This document shows positions 3,802 through 62,051 of a stretch of DNA of 64,000 nt, piece by piece (position 1 is the first letter of the stretch; every line of letters starts with the position of its first letter). The notes under the pieces are model-generated. The model was given only the letters and a program-made list of their open reading frames with translations, made no database searches and had not been told where the DNA came from. The stretch is from Pseudomonas sp. DG56-2 (lineage in GTDB: Bacteria > Pseudomonadota > Gammaproteobacteria > Pseudomonadales > Pseudomonadaceae): positions 1,504,501 to 1,568,500 of the forward strand of contig NZ_CP032311.1 of NCBI RefSeq assembly GCF_004803755.1, read 5' to 3'. A program made the translations under genes and the position numbers.

Positions 3802-5133
3802 TTATTCGCTACGCTCGCCGATCCGCTGGCCCCAGGCGCAGGCGGCGGCATGCAGGGCCTGCTCGTCCATGCGGGTCAGGCGGCGCTCATCGAGCAATTG
3901 TTGACCAGCAACCCAGACATGCTTCACGCAGTCACGATTGCTGGTGTAGATCAGTTGTGAAACCGGCTCATAGAGTGGTTGCTGGGCCAATCCCGACAGA
4001 TCGAATGCGACCAGGTCGGCAGCCTTGCCCACTTCCAGCGAACCTGTCACTGCTTCCAGGCCCAGCGCCCGCGCCCCATTGAGGGTGGCCATACGCAAGG
4101 CCCGGTGTGCATCCAGGGCAGCAGCCGAGCCGGCCACTGCCTTGGCCAGCAAGGCGGCGGTGCGGGTTTCACCGAGCAGGTCGAGGTCGTTGTTGCTGGC
4201 CGCACCATCGGTACCCACAGCTAGATTGACACCCGCTTGCCACAAACGCTCCACGGGGCAGAAACCACTGGCCAGCTTGAGGTTGGATTCCGGGCAATGC
4301 ACCACACTGGTGTTGCTTTCTACCAGCAGGGCCAGGTCGTCGTCGCTGATCTGAGTCATGTGCACAGCCTGCAGGCGCGGGCCGAGCAGACCCAGGCGCG
4401 CCAGGCGGGCCAGCGGGCGCTCGTTGCGGGTGGCCAGCGATTGCTCCACCTCAAACGCGGTTTCGTGGATGTGCATGTGTATCGGCGCGTCGAGTTCTTC
4501 GGCGATGACGCGGATTTTTTCCAGGTTTTCGTCGCTCACCGTGTACGGGGCATGCGGGCCCATGGCCACGGTTATGCGTGGGTGGTAGCGCAGGTCGCCG
4601 AACAGTTCGACCGCCTGATGCAGGCCGTCTTCGGCGGTGCGTGCGCCTGGTATCGCGAAGTCGAGCAGCGGTACGGCGATTTGCGCACGGATACCACTGT
4701 TGTGTACCCGTTCACTGGCGACCTTGGGAAAAAAGTACATGTCGGAAAAACAGGTAACGCCACCTTTGATCTGCTCGGCGATCGCCAGGTCGGTGCCATC
4801 ACGCACGAATGCTTCATCCACCCAGCGGCCTTCGGCCGGCCAGATGTGTTCTTCGAGCCAGGTCATCAGCGGCAGGTCGTCGGCCAGGCCGCGAAACAGG
4901 GTCATGGCGGCATGGCCGTGGGCGTTGATCAGCCCGGGGCTGAGCAGGCAGCCTGGCAGCTCGCGGGTTTCGCTGGCGACAAAGCGCTCGGCTTCGGCGC
5001 GGGTGCCGATGAAAACAATGTGGCCATCACGGATACCCAGGCCATGATCCTTCAATACCACCCCGGCAGGTTCGACAGGCACCAGCCAGGTCGGCAGGAG
5101 CAACAGGTCGAGCGGTGTAGCGGGTTTGGGCAT
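3802..5133 (-). CDS. mtaD: TRZ/ATZ amidohydrolase, MTA/SAH deaminase type
   Basis: A 443-residue cytoplasmic amidohydrolase that deaminates 5'-methylthioadenosine and/or S-adenosylhomocysteine to the inosine derivatives. All metal and catalytic positions of the subfamily are present: HGH (His72, His74), His221 with Glu224 in HIHE, His258 in VHMT and Asp309 in GTDGAASN. The start MPKPATP at 5133 is chosen over an upstream in-frame extension, because the extension would run through the divergent mtnA promoter and start. It is divergent from mtnA, the next step after MTA cleavage in some salvage routes; unlike mtnA it looks catalytically intact. Confidence 0.9.
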
Positions 5134-5242: not shown

Positions 5243-6319
5243 ATGCGCGATCGACTACTGGCAGCAGAGAAGGTGAACGCCATCGATTGGCGTGATGGCA
5301 TCTTGTACTTGCTCGACCAGTGCGTTCTGCCAGCTGAAGAGCGCTGGCAAGCCTGTTCCGATGCAGCCCAGGTGGCGCAAGCCATTGCGTCGATGCGAGT
5401 GCGCGGTGCGCCTGCCATCGGCATTTGTGCGGCCTATGGCCTGGCCATGGCCGTGCGCCAGCGCCTGGCTGAGGGCGACGATTGGGAAATGGCCCTGGAG
5501 GAAGACTTCGAGACCCTGCTGCATTCGCGTCCAACCGGCGCCAACCTGTTCTGGTCGCTCAATCGCATGCGCGAGCGTCTGCTGCGAATCAAGGAAGGTG
5601 AGGATGTGGCGGCCATCATGGAGGCTGAAGCCATTGCCATCCACGACAGCGATCGAGAAGCAAACCTGACTATGGCCCAGTTGGGCGCCGAGCTGATTCG
5701 CAAGCATCAGGGCAACGAGCAGGCGGTGCTTACCCACGGCAATGCCGGCGCGCTGGCAACCGGCGGTTTCGGCACGGCCTTGGGGGTCATTCGTGCAGCT
5801 TATCTGGAGGGCATGGTTGAACGGGTGTATGTCGACGAAACCCGGCCATGGCTGCAAGGTTCGCGGCTGACAGCCTGGGAGTTGGCCAACGATGGCATTC
5901 CCTTGACCGTCAATGCCGATGCCGCTGCCGCCCACTTGATGAAAACCAAGGGTATCACCTGGGTTGTTGTCGGTGCCGAGCGCATTAGTGCCAATGGCGA
6001 CGTGGCCAGCAAGATCGGTACTTATCAGTTGGCAGTCAATGCCATGCACCACGGCGTGCGCTTCATGGTGGTTGCATCAAGTTCGAGCATCGACCTGAAC
6101 CTGGACAGCGGTGAAGACATCCTCCTCGAAGAGCGTGATGCCAGCGAGCTGATGGAGGTTGCCGGCACGCGCGTGGGCGCCGAGGTCGATGCGTTCAATC
6201 CGGTATTCGATGTAACCCCGGCGGACCTGATCGATGTCATTGTCACCGAGAAAGGTATTGTCGAACGTCCGGACACGGTAAAGATGGCGCAACTGATGTG
6301 TCGCAAGCGCTTGCATTGA
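5243..6319 (+). CDS. mtnA: MtnA-like protein (methylthioribose-1-phosphate isomerase family) lacking both catalytic residues
   Basis: A 358-residue member of the aIF-2B-related isomerase family, collinear over its length with pseudomonad MtnA, which converts 5-methylthioribose-1-phosphate to methylthioribulose-1-phosphate. In B. subtilis MtnA the catalytic pair is Cys160 and Asp240. Here the aligned positions are Gly166 (LTHGNAG, codon GGC at 5738) and Glu246 (VGAERI, codon GAG at 5978), with the same 80-residue spacing. The rest of the fold, including [29 protein letters not shown] and the conserved C-terminal [10 protein letters not shown], is intact and there is no stop or frameshift. The gene may encode an inactive or re-purposed protein. 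It is divergent from an intact mtaD. Confidence 0.85.
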
Positions 6320-6598: not shown

Positions 6599-9226
6599 AT
6601 GGGCGAACTGGCCAAAGAAATCCTCCCGGTCAATATCGAAGACGAACTGAGACAGTCCTACCTCGACTACGCGATGAGCGTCATTGTCGGGCGTGCACTG
6701 CCCGATGCGCGTGATGGCTTGAAGCCCGTGCATCGCCGCGTTCTGTATGCGATGAGCGAACTGGGTAACGACTGGAACAAACCGTACAAGAAATCCGCCC
6801 GTGTGGTCGGTGACGTGATCGGTAAGTACCACCCGCATGGTGATACGGCTGTATACGACACCATCGTACGTATGGCGCAGCCATTCTCGCTGCGGTACCT
6901 GCTGGTCGACGGCCAGGGCAACTTCGGTTCGGTGGACGGCGACAATGCCGCGGCCATGCGATACACCGAAGTGCGCATGACCAAGCTGGCCCATGAGCTG
7001 CTGGCCGACCTGCACAAGGAAACCGTCGATTGGGTGCCCAACTACGACGGCACCGAGCTGATCCCGGCGGTCATGCCGACCAAGATCCCCAACCTGCTGG
7101 TCAACGGTTCCAGCGGTATTGCCGTGGGCATGGCAACCAACATCCCGCCGCACAACCTCGGTGAAGTCATCGACGGTTGCCTGGCGCTGATCGACAATCC
7201 GGAAATCTCCATTGATGAACTGATGCAGTTCATCCCGGGTCCTGACTTTCCGACCGCAGCAATCATCAACGGTCGCCAGGGCATCATCGAGGCCTATCGC
7301 ACTGGTCGTGGGCGCATCTACATGCGTGCACGCTCGATGGTCGAGGACATCGACAAGGTCGGTGGCCGTCAGCAGATCGTCGTTACCGAGCTGCCGTATC
7401 AGCTGAACAAGGCGCGTCTGATCGAGAAGATCGCCGAGCTGGTCAAGGAAAAGAAACTCGAAGGCATCACCGAGCTGCGCGACGAGTCCGACAAGGACGG
7501 TATGCGTATCGTCATCGAGCTGCGTCGTGGCGAAGTGCCAGAGGTTATTCTCAATAACCTCTACGCCCAGACCCAGCTGCAGAGCGTTTTCGGTATCAAC
7601 GTGGTCGCGCTGATCGATGGCCGCCCACGGGTACTGAACCTCAAGGACCTGCTCGAAGCATTCGTTCGTCACCGTCGCGAAGTCGTTACTCGCCGTACCG
7701 TGTTCGAACTGCGCAAGGCGCGTGAGCGTGGCCATATCCTTGAAGGCCAGGCGGTAGCCTTGTCCAACATCGATCCGGTCATCGCCCTGATCAAGGCTTC
7801 GCCGACGCCGTCGGAAGCCAAAGAAGCGCTGATCAGCACACCGTGGGAATCGAGTGCCGTACAGATCATGGTCGAGCGTGCAGGCGCCGATTCCTGCCGT
7901 CCGGAAAACCTCGATGAGCAATACGGCCTGCGTGATGGCAAGTATTTCCTCTCGCCAGAACAGGCCCAGGCCATTCTTGACCTGCGTCTGCACCGCCTGA
8001 CCGGCCTCGAGCACGAGAAGCTGCTGGCCGAGTATCAGGAAATCCTCAACCAGATCGGCGAGCTGATTCGCATCCTCAGCAGCGCTGAGCGCCTGATGGA
8101 AGTGATCCGCGAAGAGCTGGAACTGATCCGTGCCGAATACGGCGACGTGCGCCGTACCGAAATTCTCGATGCGCGCCTCGACCTGACCCTGGGCGACATG
8201 ATTCCGGAAGAAGACCGGGTCGTGACCATCTCCCACGGCGGCTACGCCAAGACCCAACCGCTGGCGGCCTATCAGGCTCAGCGTCGTGGCGGCAAAGGCA
8301 AGTCGGCCACTGGCGTCAAGGACGAGGACTACATCTCGCACCTGCTGGTAGCCAACAGCCACACCACGTTGTTGCTGTTCTCCAGCAAGGGCAAGGTGTA
8401 CTGGCTCAAGACTTACGAAATTCCGGAAGCCTCCCGTGCTGCGCGCGGTCGACCTCTGGTCAACCTGCTGCCGCTGGACGAAGGCGAGTACATCTCGACC
8501 ATGTTGCCGGTCGAGGAATACACCGAAGGTCACTTCATCTTCATGGCGACCGCCAACGGTACCGTGAAGAAGACCCCGCTGGAGTCGTTCAGCCGTCAGC
8601 GTAGCGTCGGTCTGATCGCCCTGGAGCTGGACGAAGGTGACGTACTGATTTCTGCCGCCATCACCGATGGCGAGCGCGAAGTCATGCTGTTCTCCGACGC
8701 TGGCAAGGTCACCCGTTTCAAAGAGTCCGATGTTCGGGCCATGGGCCGTACCGCCCGTGGTGTACGCGGCATGCGTCTGGCCGAAGGCCAGAAGCTGATC
8801 TCCATGATCATTCCGGAGGAGGGCAGCCAGATCCTCACCGCCTCCGAACGTGGTTTTGGCAAGCGTACCGAAATCGGCGAGTTCCCCGAGTACAAGCGTG
8901 GCGGTCAAGGCGTTATTGCCATGGTCAGCAACGAGCGTAACGGCCGTCTGGTCGGTGCGGTGCAGGTGCAGGAAGGCGAAGAAATCATGCTGATTTCCGA
9001 CCAGGGCACCTTGGTCCGTACCCGCGTTGGTGAGGTTTCCAGCTTGGGTCGTAACACCCAGGGTGTCACCCTGATCAAGCTGGCCAGCGACGAGACCCTG
9101 GTAGGTCTGGAACGTGTCCAGGAGCCATCCGAAGAGGAAGGTGACGAAGACTACGAAGAAGATACTGACGCCGTTGAAGCACCAGAGGCCGCCGCCGCTG
9201 GCGACGAAGAGGCGCCGCAGGAATAA
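6599..9226 (+). CDS. gyrA: DNA gyrase subunit A
   Basis: An 875-residue catalytic subunit of the type II topoisomerase that introduces negative supercoils (GyrA2GyrB2). The start [10 protein letters not shown] at 6599 follows an AAAGGA ribosome-binding site. The breakage-reunion domain carries catalytic Tyr122 (RYTEV). The quinolone-resistance-determining region has Thr83 and Asp87 in [11 protein letters not shown], the wild-type pseudomonad residues, so no classic fluoroquinolone-resistance change is seen. The GyrA box QRRGGKG opens the C-terminal DNA-wrapping beta-pinwheel, and an acidic tail rich in Glu and Asp ends the protein. Confidence 0.99.
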
Positions 9227-60374: not shown

Positions 60375-61520
60375 GTGGCGCCGATTCCCTACTGGCGGCT
60401 GTCCAGCTTTTACCTGTTCTACTTTGCCTTGCTCGGGTCTACAGCGCCGTTTCTGGCGCTGTACTTTCATCACCTGGGTTTTTCCAGCGCGCGCATCGGC
60501 GAATTGGTTGCCATCCCCATGCTGATGCGCTGTATCGCGCCCAATCTATGGGGCTGGTTGGGTGATCGCAGCGGTCAACGCCTGTTGATCGTGCGCCTTG
60601 GCGCGCTGTTCACACTGTTGAGCTTCTCACTGATCTTTTTTGCCAAAAGCTATGCCTGGCTTGCGCTGGTCATGGCCTTGCACGCGTTCTTCTGGCACGC
60701 GGTGTTGCCGCAGTTCGAGGTCATCACCCTGGCGCACTTGCAGGGTCAGACGTCGCGCTACAGCCAGATTCGGCTGTGGGGTTCGATTGGTTTCATTCTG
60801 ACCGTGGTCGGCCTTGGGCGACTGTTCGATAGCTTGAGCCTGGATGTGTATCCGCAGGCGTTGGTGGTCATCATGGCCGGTATCGTGCTCGCCAGCTTCT
60901 GGGTGCCGAACGCCCAGCCACCGGGGCAGAATGAGCGAAGCCAGGGTGGTTTTCTCAAGCAGTTGACCCGCCCTGGCGTGGCCGCCTTCTATGTTTGTGT
61001 GGCGCTGATGCAGCTCAGCCATGGTCCCTATTACACCTTTCTCACCCTGCACCTGGAGCAACTCGGCTTCAGCCGCGGGATAATCGGTATGCTCTGGGCG
61101 CTGGGCGTGGTGGCCGAAGTGCTGATGTTCCTCGGCATGAGCTGGATTCTGGCGCGGGTATCGCTGCGCCGGGTGCTGATGGCCAGTTTCATCCTGGCGG
61201 CCCTGCGTTGGCTGCTCCTGGGCAATTATGCTGAGCACCTGGCCGTGCTGTTGTTTGCCCAGGTGCTGCATGCCGCCACCTTCGGCAGCTTCCACGCCGC
61301 GGCCATCGCTTTTGTGCAGCGTAGTTTTGCTGCGCGTCAGCAAGGGCAGGGCCAGGCCCTGTACGCAGCCTTGGCCGGCACCGGCGGAGCCTTGGGCGCT
61401 CTGTATTCCGGCTACAGCTGGAACCTGTTGGGTGCAACTACCACCTTTAGTATTGCCAGCATCGCAGCCCTGGCCGCAGCCGTTATCATTGCGACCCAGA
61501 TGAAAGATGCCCAGACATAG
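60375..61520 (+). CDS. MFS transporter (HcaT/LacY-like)
   Basis: A 381-residue, 12-TM MFS protein of the 3-phenylpropionate/nucleoside permease-like group (WRLSSFYLFYFALLGSTAPF; LWGWLGDRSGQR). It begins at GTG 60375, 38 bp after aroC. In P. aeruginosa an MFS gene also follows aroC and precedes the methionine-salvage genes mtnB-mtnD-mtnC. Here only an mtnD-like gene follows, 12 bp downstream. Substrate unknown. Confidence 0.85.
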   Translation: MAPIPYWRLSSFYLFYFALLGSTAPFLALYFHHLGFSSARIGELVAIPMLMRCIAPNLWGWLGDRSGQRLLIVRLGALFTLLSFSLIFFAKSYAWLALVMALHAFFWHAVLPQFEVITLAHLQGQTSRYSQIRLWGSIGFILTVVGLGRLFDSLSLDVYPQALVVIMAGIVLASFWVPNAQPPGQNERSQGGFLKQLTRPGVAAFYVCVALMQLSHGPYYTFLTLHLEQLGFSRGIIGMLWALGVVAEVLMFLGMSWILARVSLRRVLMASFILAALRWLLLGNYAEHLAVLLFAQVLHAATFGSFHAAAIAFVQRSFAARQQGQGQALYAALAGTGGALGALYSGYSWNLLGATTTFSIASIAALAAAVIIATQMKDAQT

Positions 61521-61532
61521 GAAGCGCCTTTA

Positions 61533-62051
61533 ATGAGCAGCCTGACCGTTTACCACCAGTCCACCCCGGACATCCCCAACAAGGTGCTGACCCACCTTGA
61601 GGACATCGCTGCCACGCTGGCTGAGCACGCTGTGCGTTTCGAGCGTTGGCAAGCTGACTCTGCGATCCAGCCCGGTGCTGGCGATCAACACATCATCGAA
61701 GCCTACCGGTCGAGCATCGACACATTGCTGGCCGAACGCGGGTACGCCCATGTCGATGTAATCCGTGAAGTGGATGGCGCTTTGCGCAATGAGCATACGT
61801 GCAAGGAAGACCAGCTGCGCTTTTTTGCTGCCGGACGCGGGCTGTTCAGCCTGCGCATTGACGATTACATCTACGCAGTGCTGTGCGAGAAGGGCGATTT
61901 GATCGGCGTGCCGGCTGGCACCAGGCTGTGGGTCGATATGGGTGATGAACCGCGATTCGTTGCCATTCGCCTGTCCAACGCCCCAGAAGGGCAAGCTGTA
62001 GATTTCACCGGCGACCCGATTGCCGAGCGTTATCCACGCCTTGATGATTGA
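61533..62051 (+). CDS. Acireductone dioxygenase-like cupin lacking metal ligands
   Basis: A 172-residue protein clearly descended from MtnD (SSLTVYHQSTPDIPNKVLTH; YAVLCEKGDL). MtnD binds Fe or Ni through His96, His98, Glu102 and His140 (Klebsiella numbering). Here the aligned residues are His88, Cys90, Gln94 (NEHTCKEDQLRFF) and Leu132 (GTRLWVDMG, codon CTG at 61926), so three of four ligands are gone. It is also about nine residues shorter than pseudomonad MtnD, just before the metal motif. The frame is intact and well spaced after the MFS gene. Unlikely to be a dioxygenase; possibly a re-purposed cupin. Confidence 0.85.
   Translation: MSSLTVYHQSTPDIPNKVLTHLEDIAATLAEHAVRFERWQADSAIQPGAGDQHIIEAYRSSIDTLLAERGYAHVDVIREVDGALRNEHTCKEDQLRFFAAGRGLFSLRIDDYIYAVLCEKGDLIGVPAGTRLWVDMGDEPRFVAIRLSNAPEGQAVDFTGDPIAERYPRLDD

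Follow-up and report, generated by a model that had tools for sequence, protein, structure and literature searches.

Two salvage-gene homologues in the window

The window, by which we mean the whole 64,000-nucleotide stretch of DNA that was analysed, carries homologues of two methionine-salvage enzymes. Positions 5243..6319 (+ strand) form an intact reading frame of 358 amino acids for a member of the MtnA family (S-methyl-5-thioribose-1-phosphate isomerase), which we consider a probable pseudoenzyme. TIGR00512, the equivalog model for MtnA, scores this protein at 423.1 bits (cut-off 279). A whole-genome search for MtnA (E 0.001; 11 candidates scored) returned one match only, the window gene. 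It is the sole copy found, and a second intact copy can be rejected.

Residues were matched by alignment to B. subtilis MtnA (PDB 2yrf), with positions counted by hand and the 374-residue chain of this entry taken to bear a 21-residue tag, judging by the native length of the protein. In this alignment the place of Cys160 is occupied by Gly166 (codon GGC, 5738..5740, +) and that of Asp240 by Glu246 (codon GAG, 5978..5980, +); Cys160 and Asp240 are the catalytic pair of the B. subtilis enzyme. The first-pass annotation had described both substitutions and the full open frame, and the alignment bears it out. Beyond these two changes we found a third one in the pocket, Ser256 (codon AGC, 6008..6010, +), where B. 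subtilis MtnA has Asn250. The structure model of the protein was poor (mean pLDDT 63) and too weak for mapping surface conservation.

Measured against MtnA as defined by TIGR00512 and the B. subtilis structures 2yrf and 2yvk, the window protein is full-length, colinear and above the model cut-off, keeps most of the matched phosphate-contact positions, and is encoded next to an MTA-deaminase-type gene. It differs from MtnA in the replaced catalytic Cys and Asp and in position 256, and also in its genomic setting. Searches of its own genome for MtnC and MtnP gave no match and those for MtnB gave weak matches below the cut-off (one family model for each protein, with MtnW and MtnX outside the search). 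As none of MtnP, MtnB and MtnC was found, methionine salvage seems to be interrupted here, and both substrate supply and downstream steps appear to be lost.

The divergent neighbour of mtnA (3802..5133, − strand; model NF006549) codes for an MtaD-type MTA/5'-deoxyadenosine deaminase-like hydrolase. An MtaD-type gene lies beside mtnA in all 84 loci examined, with HxH and GTD motifs present; a further His-motif expression was unmatched in this gene in 13 Cys166 loci. Directly downstream of mtnA lies gyrA (6599..9226, +), the source of the species tree used below.

Further along the window, the gene at 61533..62051 (+) encodes a homologue of MtnD, acireductone dioxygenase (ARD), that retains only one of the four metal ligands. 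It scores 70.6 bits against Pfam ARD (cut-off 27), and no NCBIfam model matched it at E 0.001. Aligned to 1zrr, whose metal ligands we take to be H96, H98, E102 and H140, it keeps the first as His88 and has Cys, Gln and Leu at residues 90, 94 and 132. Its structure model is strand-rich, with a mean pLDDT of 89. Judging by these ligand positions, the MtnD homologue would be another salvage enzyme in the window that is retained yet looks inactive. The gene directly upstream (60375..61520, +) codes for an MFS transporter (MFS_1_like; the nucleoside H+ symporter family matched less strongly), whose cargo might be methylthio-nucleosides or what they break down to.

Active-site substitutions among relatives

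Position 166 was read in 131 distinct mtnA coding sequences (the window's included, 19 duplicates dropped), which represent the relatives most similar to the window and not a genus census; the 40 genus regions among the loci were hand-picked among the matches listed for the MtnA homologue search. The residue is Cys in 114 sequences, Gly in 16 and Ser in one. With 16 occurrences of Gly166, chance or a sequencing slip at this codon can be rejected. Named relatives with Gly166 include P. arcuscaelestis, P. rubra, P. wadenswilerensis, P. donghuensis, P. aegrilactucae, P. brassicae and P. kielensis, and protein records under the names P. entomophila, P. monteilii and P. alabamensis combine Gly166 with an Arg247 to Cys change.

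On a gyrA tree (FastTree, 116 rows, G107/L122 absent), position 166 needs at least seven changes, and the starred branches alone force seven. With Cys as the starting state these are most simply six changes to Gly and one to Ser; as the parsimony count has no fixed direction, a regained Cys is also possible. Two best-120 match lists, the second of them made with a Phytopseudomonas-type protein as reference, gave 239 homologues together with the window's own. A residue other than Cys stands at this position in 75 of them, and in 74 of the 75 it is Gly, unlike the mix that free drift would give. Single-base changes of TGC that are neither silent nor stop lead to Ser in two ways and to Arg, Gly, Tyr, Phe and Trp in one way each. 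If these seven were equally likely, the chance of at least six Gly in seven events would be about 5e-5, a figure to be read as a rough guide. A preference of the backbone for Gly would also yield this excess.

Glu246 is much rarer. It occurs in one of the 131 distinct sequences, the window's own, and in five of 231 partly redundant rows, two of which are again the window's own. The MtnA of P. arcuscaelestis, which is 96% identical to that of the window, shares Gly166 and keeps Asp246, so that Glu246 appears to be the younger of the two changes.

Asp246 is kept in 15 of the 16 Gly166 genes, which leaves room for residual or altered catalysis. In seven of the 16, Arg247 has become Cys, which puts a thiol beside Asp246. 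These proteins could therefore be altered enzymes that isomerise MTR-1-P or another aldose 1-phosphate slowly or by way of other residues, or that catalyse a new reaction. Such a reading would accommodate the phosphate-contact positions, which are mostly kept, and would suit the promiscuity of MtnA-type isomerases reported for M. jannaschii (PMC6302742). We nevertheless think it rather unlikely. The window protein has neither Cys166 nor Asp246 nor Cys247, its genome holds no detected MtnP to supply the usual substrate, and position 256, matched to a sugar contact, is not Asn in any of the 16 Gly166 rows, as opposed to 112 of 113 readable Cys166 rows (one row, unreadable at a compared position, was left out). 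In phylogenetically independent pairs, positions 166 and 256 changed the same way in five of seven cases and the opposite way in none (p 0.0625). Moreover, ribose-1,5-bisphosphate (R15P) isomerase PH0208 is reported to need the equivalent Cys/Asp pair for catalysis (PMC5789824). PH0208 and Tk-R15Pi belong to the same fold family as MtnA and contain this pair; they keep both residues and are active, and in this they differ from the window protein.

A side observation concerns one further lineage, in which two loci (L153 and L154, from G209 and G124) also have Cys for Arg247 beside Asp246; Cys166 is kept in one and replaced by Ser in the other. A relocated thiol is possible in this lineage.

Phosphate-contact positions were matched by motif to PH0208. 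In the 16 Gly166 genes R54, R96 and Q205 are present without exception, and K257 is present in 14. This pattern is what one would expect of a sensor resembling eIF2B alpha, in which the pocket binds a sugar phosphate, perhaps one other than MTR-1-P, and governs a partner through its occupancy. The analogy draws on two reports, in which eIF2B alpha, a regulatory and non-catalytic protein of the same superfamily, has Ala (human) or Gly (S. pombe) in place of the catalytic Cys (PMC5789824) and uses what was ancestrally the catalytic site for sugar-phosphate binding (PMC8187479). Like the window protein, which has Gly at this place, eIF2B alpha has kept the fold without the isomerase chemistry that the window protein, too, has presumably lost. 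Ligand binding can outlast catalysis in PH0208, whose variants C135S and D204N lost activity and kept the ligand (PMC5789824). The same paper reports that the C135A variant bound no substrate and its product only weakly, and that eIF2B alpha lacks the 1-phosphate contacts which the Gly166 genes keep, making the parallel a partial one. Sequence distance adds to this difference, eIF2B alpha being much farther from the window protein than MtnA is. Since most Gly166 relatives keep Asp246, we hold an altered enzyme to be as possible as a sensor; the sensor is a serious rival, though not the likelier reading.

More distant homologues also speak against a sensor. In three genomes (G001, G146 and G163) a Phytopseudomonas-type MtnA is 53-54% identical to the window's protein; the corresponding loci (L200, L198 and L199) have lost most of the active site in a full-length frame. 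Across 19 related protein clusters, several named P. argentinensis, P. flavescens, Phytopseudomonas daroniae or Phytopseudomonas punonensis, Arg54 is lost in 18 and Arg96 and Lys257 are each lost in all 19, with the full-length frame still kept (L201, which contains unread letters, was dropped from this comparison). Pocket losses of this extent in a maintained frame make it unlikely that the gene is generally retained for its ligand chemistry, and point towards a scaffold. A sugar-phosphate-binding or regulatory role in the manner of the aIF-2B family, as suggested by the first-pass annotation, is consequently possible in the Gly166 lineages, where the phosphate-contact positions are mostly kept, and unlikely as a general explanation, given that the Phytopseudomonas-type proteins lost most of these positions and kept their frame. 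The 114 Cys, 16 Gly and three Phytopseudomonas-type rows have 107 invariant positions in common, and this conserved remainder of MtnA is probably a scaffold.

Pathway loss, retention and selection

We sorted 65 genomes by the presence of MtnP, MtnB and MtnC; MtnB and MtnC exceeded their cut-offs in exactly the same 28. Cys166 is found in all 28 genomes with MtnP, MtnB and MtnC (27 tabulated, plus G107) and in all nine genomes with MtnP only, and is lost in 17 of the 28 genomes without the three proteins (16 Gly, one Ser). This pattern fits a stepwise release of catalysis, in lineages that are nested. Any connection between losing Cys and losing the pathway depends on this nested set: phylogenetic pairs gave two cases for an association of Cys loss with MtnP loss, none against and four ties (p 0.5), and the test against MtnC loss gave no better than p 0.5. 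A strict rule by which Cys is lost only after MtnP can be rejected. Genome G132 (88% complete, outside the 65) has an MtnP match (E 2.5e-85) together with Gly166, so the order of losses is not strict. We can also reject the idea that disposal of MTA was taken over by an MTA/SAH nucleosidase; TIGR01704 exceeded its cut-off in none of the 65 genomes and matched weakly in nine, the window's own genome not among them.

The ARD homologue follows a similar course. Among 40 genomes with a complete frame (the window's own included, L164 left out for its incomplete frame), the ligand letters are intact in seven and changed in 33. They are intact in all four pathway-complete genomes examined (4 of the 28 such genomes), and changed in seven of nine MtnP-only genomes and in 26 of the 27 examined genomes without MtnP, MtnB and MtnC. 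In each of the 40 loci fetched, the ARD gene has a homologue of the window's transporter gene upstream of it. At the four pathway-complete loci mtnB stands between the transporter gene and mtnD, followed by mtnC. At the other loci the transporter gene and mtnD stand too close together to leave space for mtnB (no more than about 145 bases apart where the frame is complete), and neither MtnB nor MtnC was found in the genomes of these small-gap loci.

Both genes persist nonetheless. An MtnA homologue is present in 297 of 298 genomes of the genus and in 288 of 288 good genomes, an ARD homologue in 293 of 298 and in 285 of 288. MtnC and MtnP exceed their cut-offs in only 122 and 161 of the 298 genomes, which means that MtnA and ARD are retained even though other pathway members are frequently missing. 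No internal stop in mtnA was found in 80 loci, in the further 40 loci, or among the matches listed for the genus.

Codon models gave omega values for mtnA of 0.036 (16 pathway-complete Cys genes), 0.070 (11 Cys genes without the pathway), 0.076 (16 Gly166 genes) and 0.099 (three Phytopseudomonas-type genes), and for the ARD gene of 0.066 (7 intact genes) and 0.139 (33 ligand-changed genes). Fixing omega at 1 lowered the log-likelihood of the Gly166 mtnA set from -7896.1 to -8975.3, about 1,080 units worse, and that of the ligand-changed ARD set from -9412.0 to -10161.0; the fit was far worse in each of nine groups. Kappa was set to 2.5 in the fixed runs and estimated in the free ones; in this likelihood comparison the Phytopseudomonas-type group also included L197. 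Counting methods gave omega values of 0.03 to 0.19 for close Gly166 mtnA pairs and mostly 0.06 to 0.27 for ligand-changed ARD pairs, with 0.44 for one pair with few differences. Within the same ten Gly166 genomes, omega was 0.078 for mtnA, 0.052 for mtaD and 0.028 for gyrA, and within 11 pathway-complete genomes 0.037, 0.040 and 0.023. The Gly166 mtnA genes are thus under strong purifying selection, with constraint relaxed about twofold, as their omega is about twice that of the pathway-complete genes. This relaxation is already seen in Cys genomes without the pathway, and so goes with the loss of the pathway and not with the loss of Cys.

The comparison of dN/dS across relatives, which the first-pass annotation had named as a check, gave an omega far below 1 in the Gly166 genes. 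The same annotation had left the choice between recent inactivation and selection for another role. The latter is now well supported, by a Cys loss that is shared with P. arcuscaelestis, recurs in other lineages and is accompanied by low omega; recent inactivation fits only the change of Asp246 to Glu. A recent pseudogene can be rejected, both by these omega values and by a Cys loss shared between species.

Slow neutral decay, in which the gene is a dying remnant that no stop or frameshift has hit so far, would agree with the missing pathway genes, the variable active-site residues and the doubling of omega relative to pathway-complete genomes. We consider it very improbable in view of the failure of omega = 1 in every group, the uninterrupted frames, the presence of an MtnA match in every good genome though MtnC and MtnP are often gone, and a Cys change that is shared between species and nearly always leads to Gly. 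It is just as hard to credit that the frame is kept for its DNA, as a segment upstream of gyrA that carries promoter or leader signals. The position of mtnA directly upstream of gyrA in the window would allow this, but silent changes are plentiful and replacements rare (78 silent and 8 replacement codons between the mtnA genes of L104 and L105), and regulatory DNA would restrain silent changes too.

A possible non-catalytic function

For the window gene we favour, with roughly even confidence, the reading that it encodes a conserved pseudoenzyme which binds another protein or serves as a scaffold, as far as can be judged from comparison of sequences. MtnA in Pseudomonas would already have had a second, non-catalytic function before the pathway was lost, most likely the binding of another protein as scaffold or regulator. 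Pathway loss would then have lifted selection on catalysis, and selection on the fold and the surface would have stayed.

The parallel fate of MtnD, eroded and retained, suggests that something other than catalysis preserves the two remnants, perhaps one and the same thing in both cases. Human ARD (ADI1), a working enzyme, has reportedly been reviewed for ties to MT1-MMP and cancer (PMC8315008) and would be an earlier example of a methionine-salvage enzyme with a second role; it differs from most of the examined Pseudomonas ARD remnants without the pathway, which have changed ligands. More tentatively, MtnA and MtnD may have a further, non-catalytic function in common that predates the loss of salvage, for example in one regulatory or scaffold complex. 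Among the titles and abstracts listed by a literature search, none reported that MtnA or ARD is inactive in any Pseudomonas.

Within a single genus, two enzymes of the same pathway seem to have lost catalytic residues again and again while remaining under selection, which offers a natural experiment on the roles of metabolic enzymes apart from catalysis. Named records among the Gly166 and Phytopseudomonas-type MtnA proteins still carry the isomerase name; if our reading is true, metabolic models that take mtnA as evidence of methionine salvage would therefore be wrong for these species. If the two proteins do share a function, selection would be keeping MtnA and MtnD throughout the genus while their active sites erode, and the "salvage genes" of many species would be annotated for a reaction that they no longer perform.
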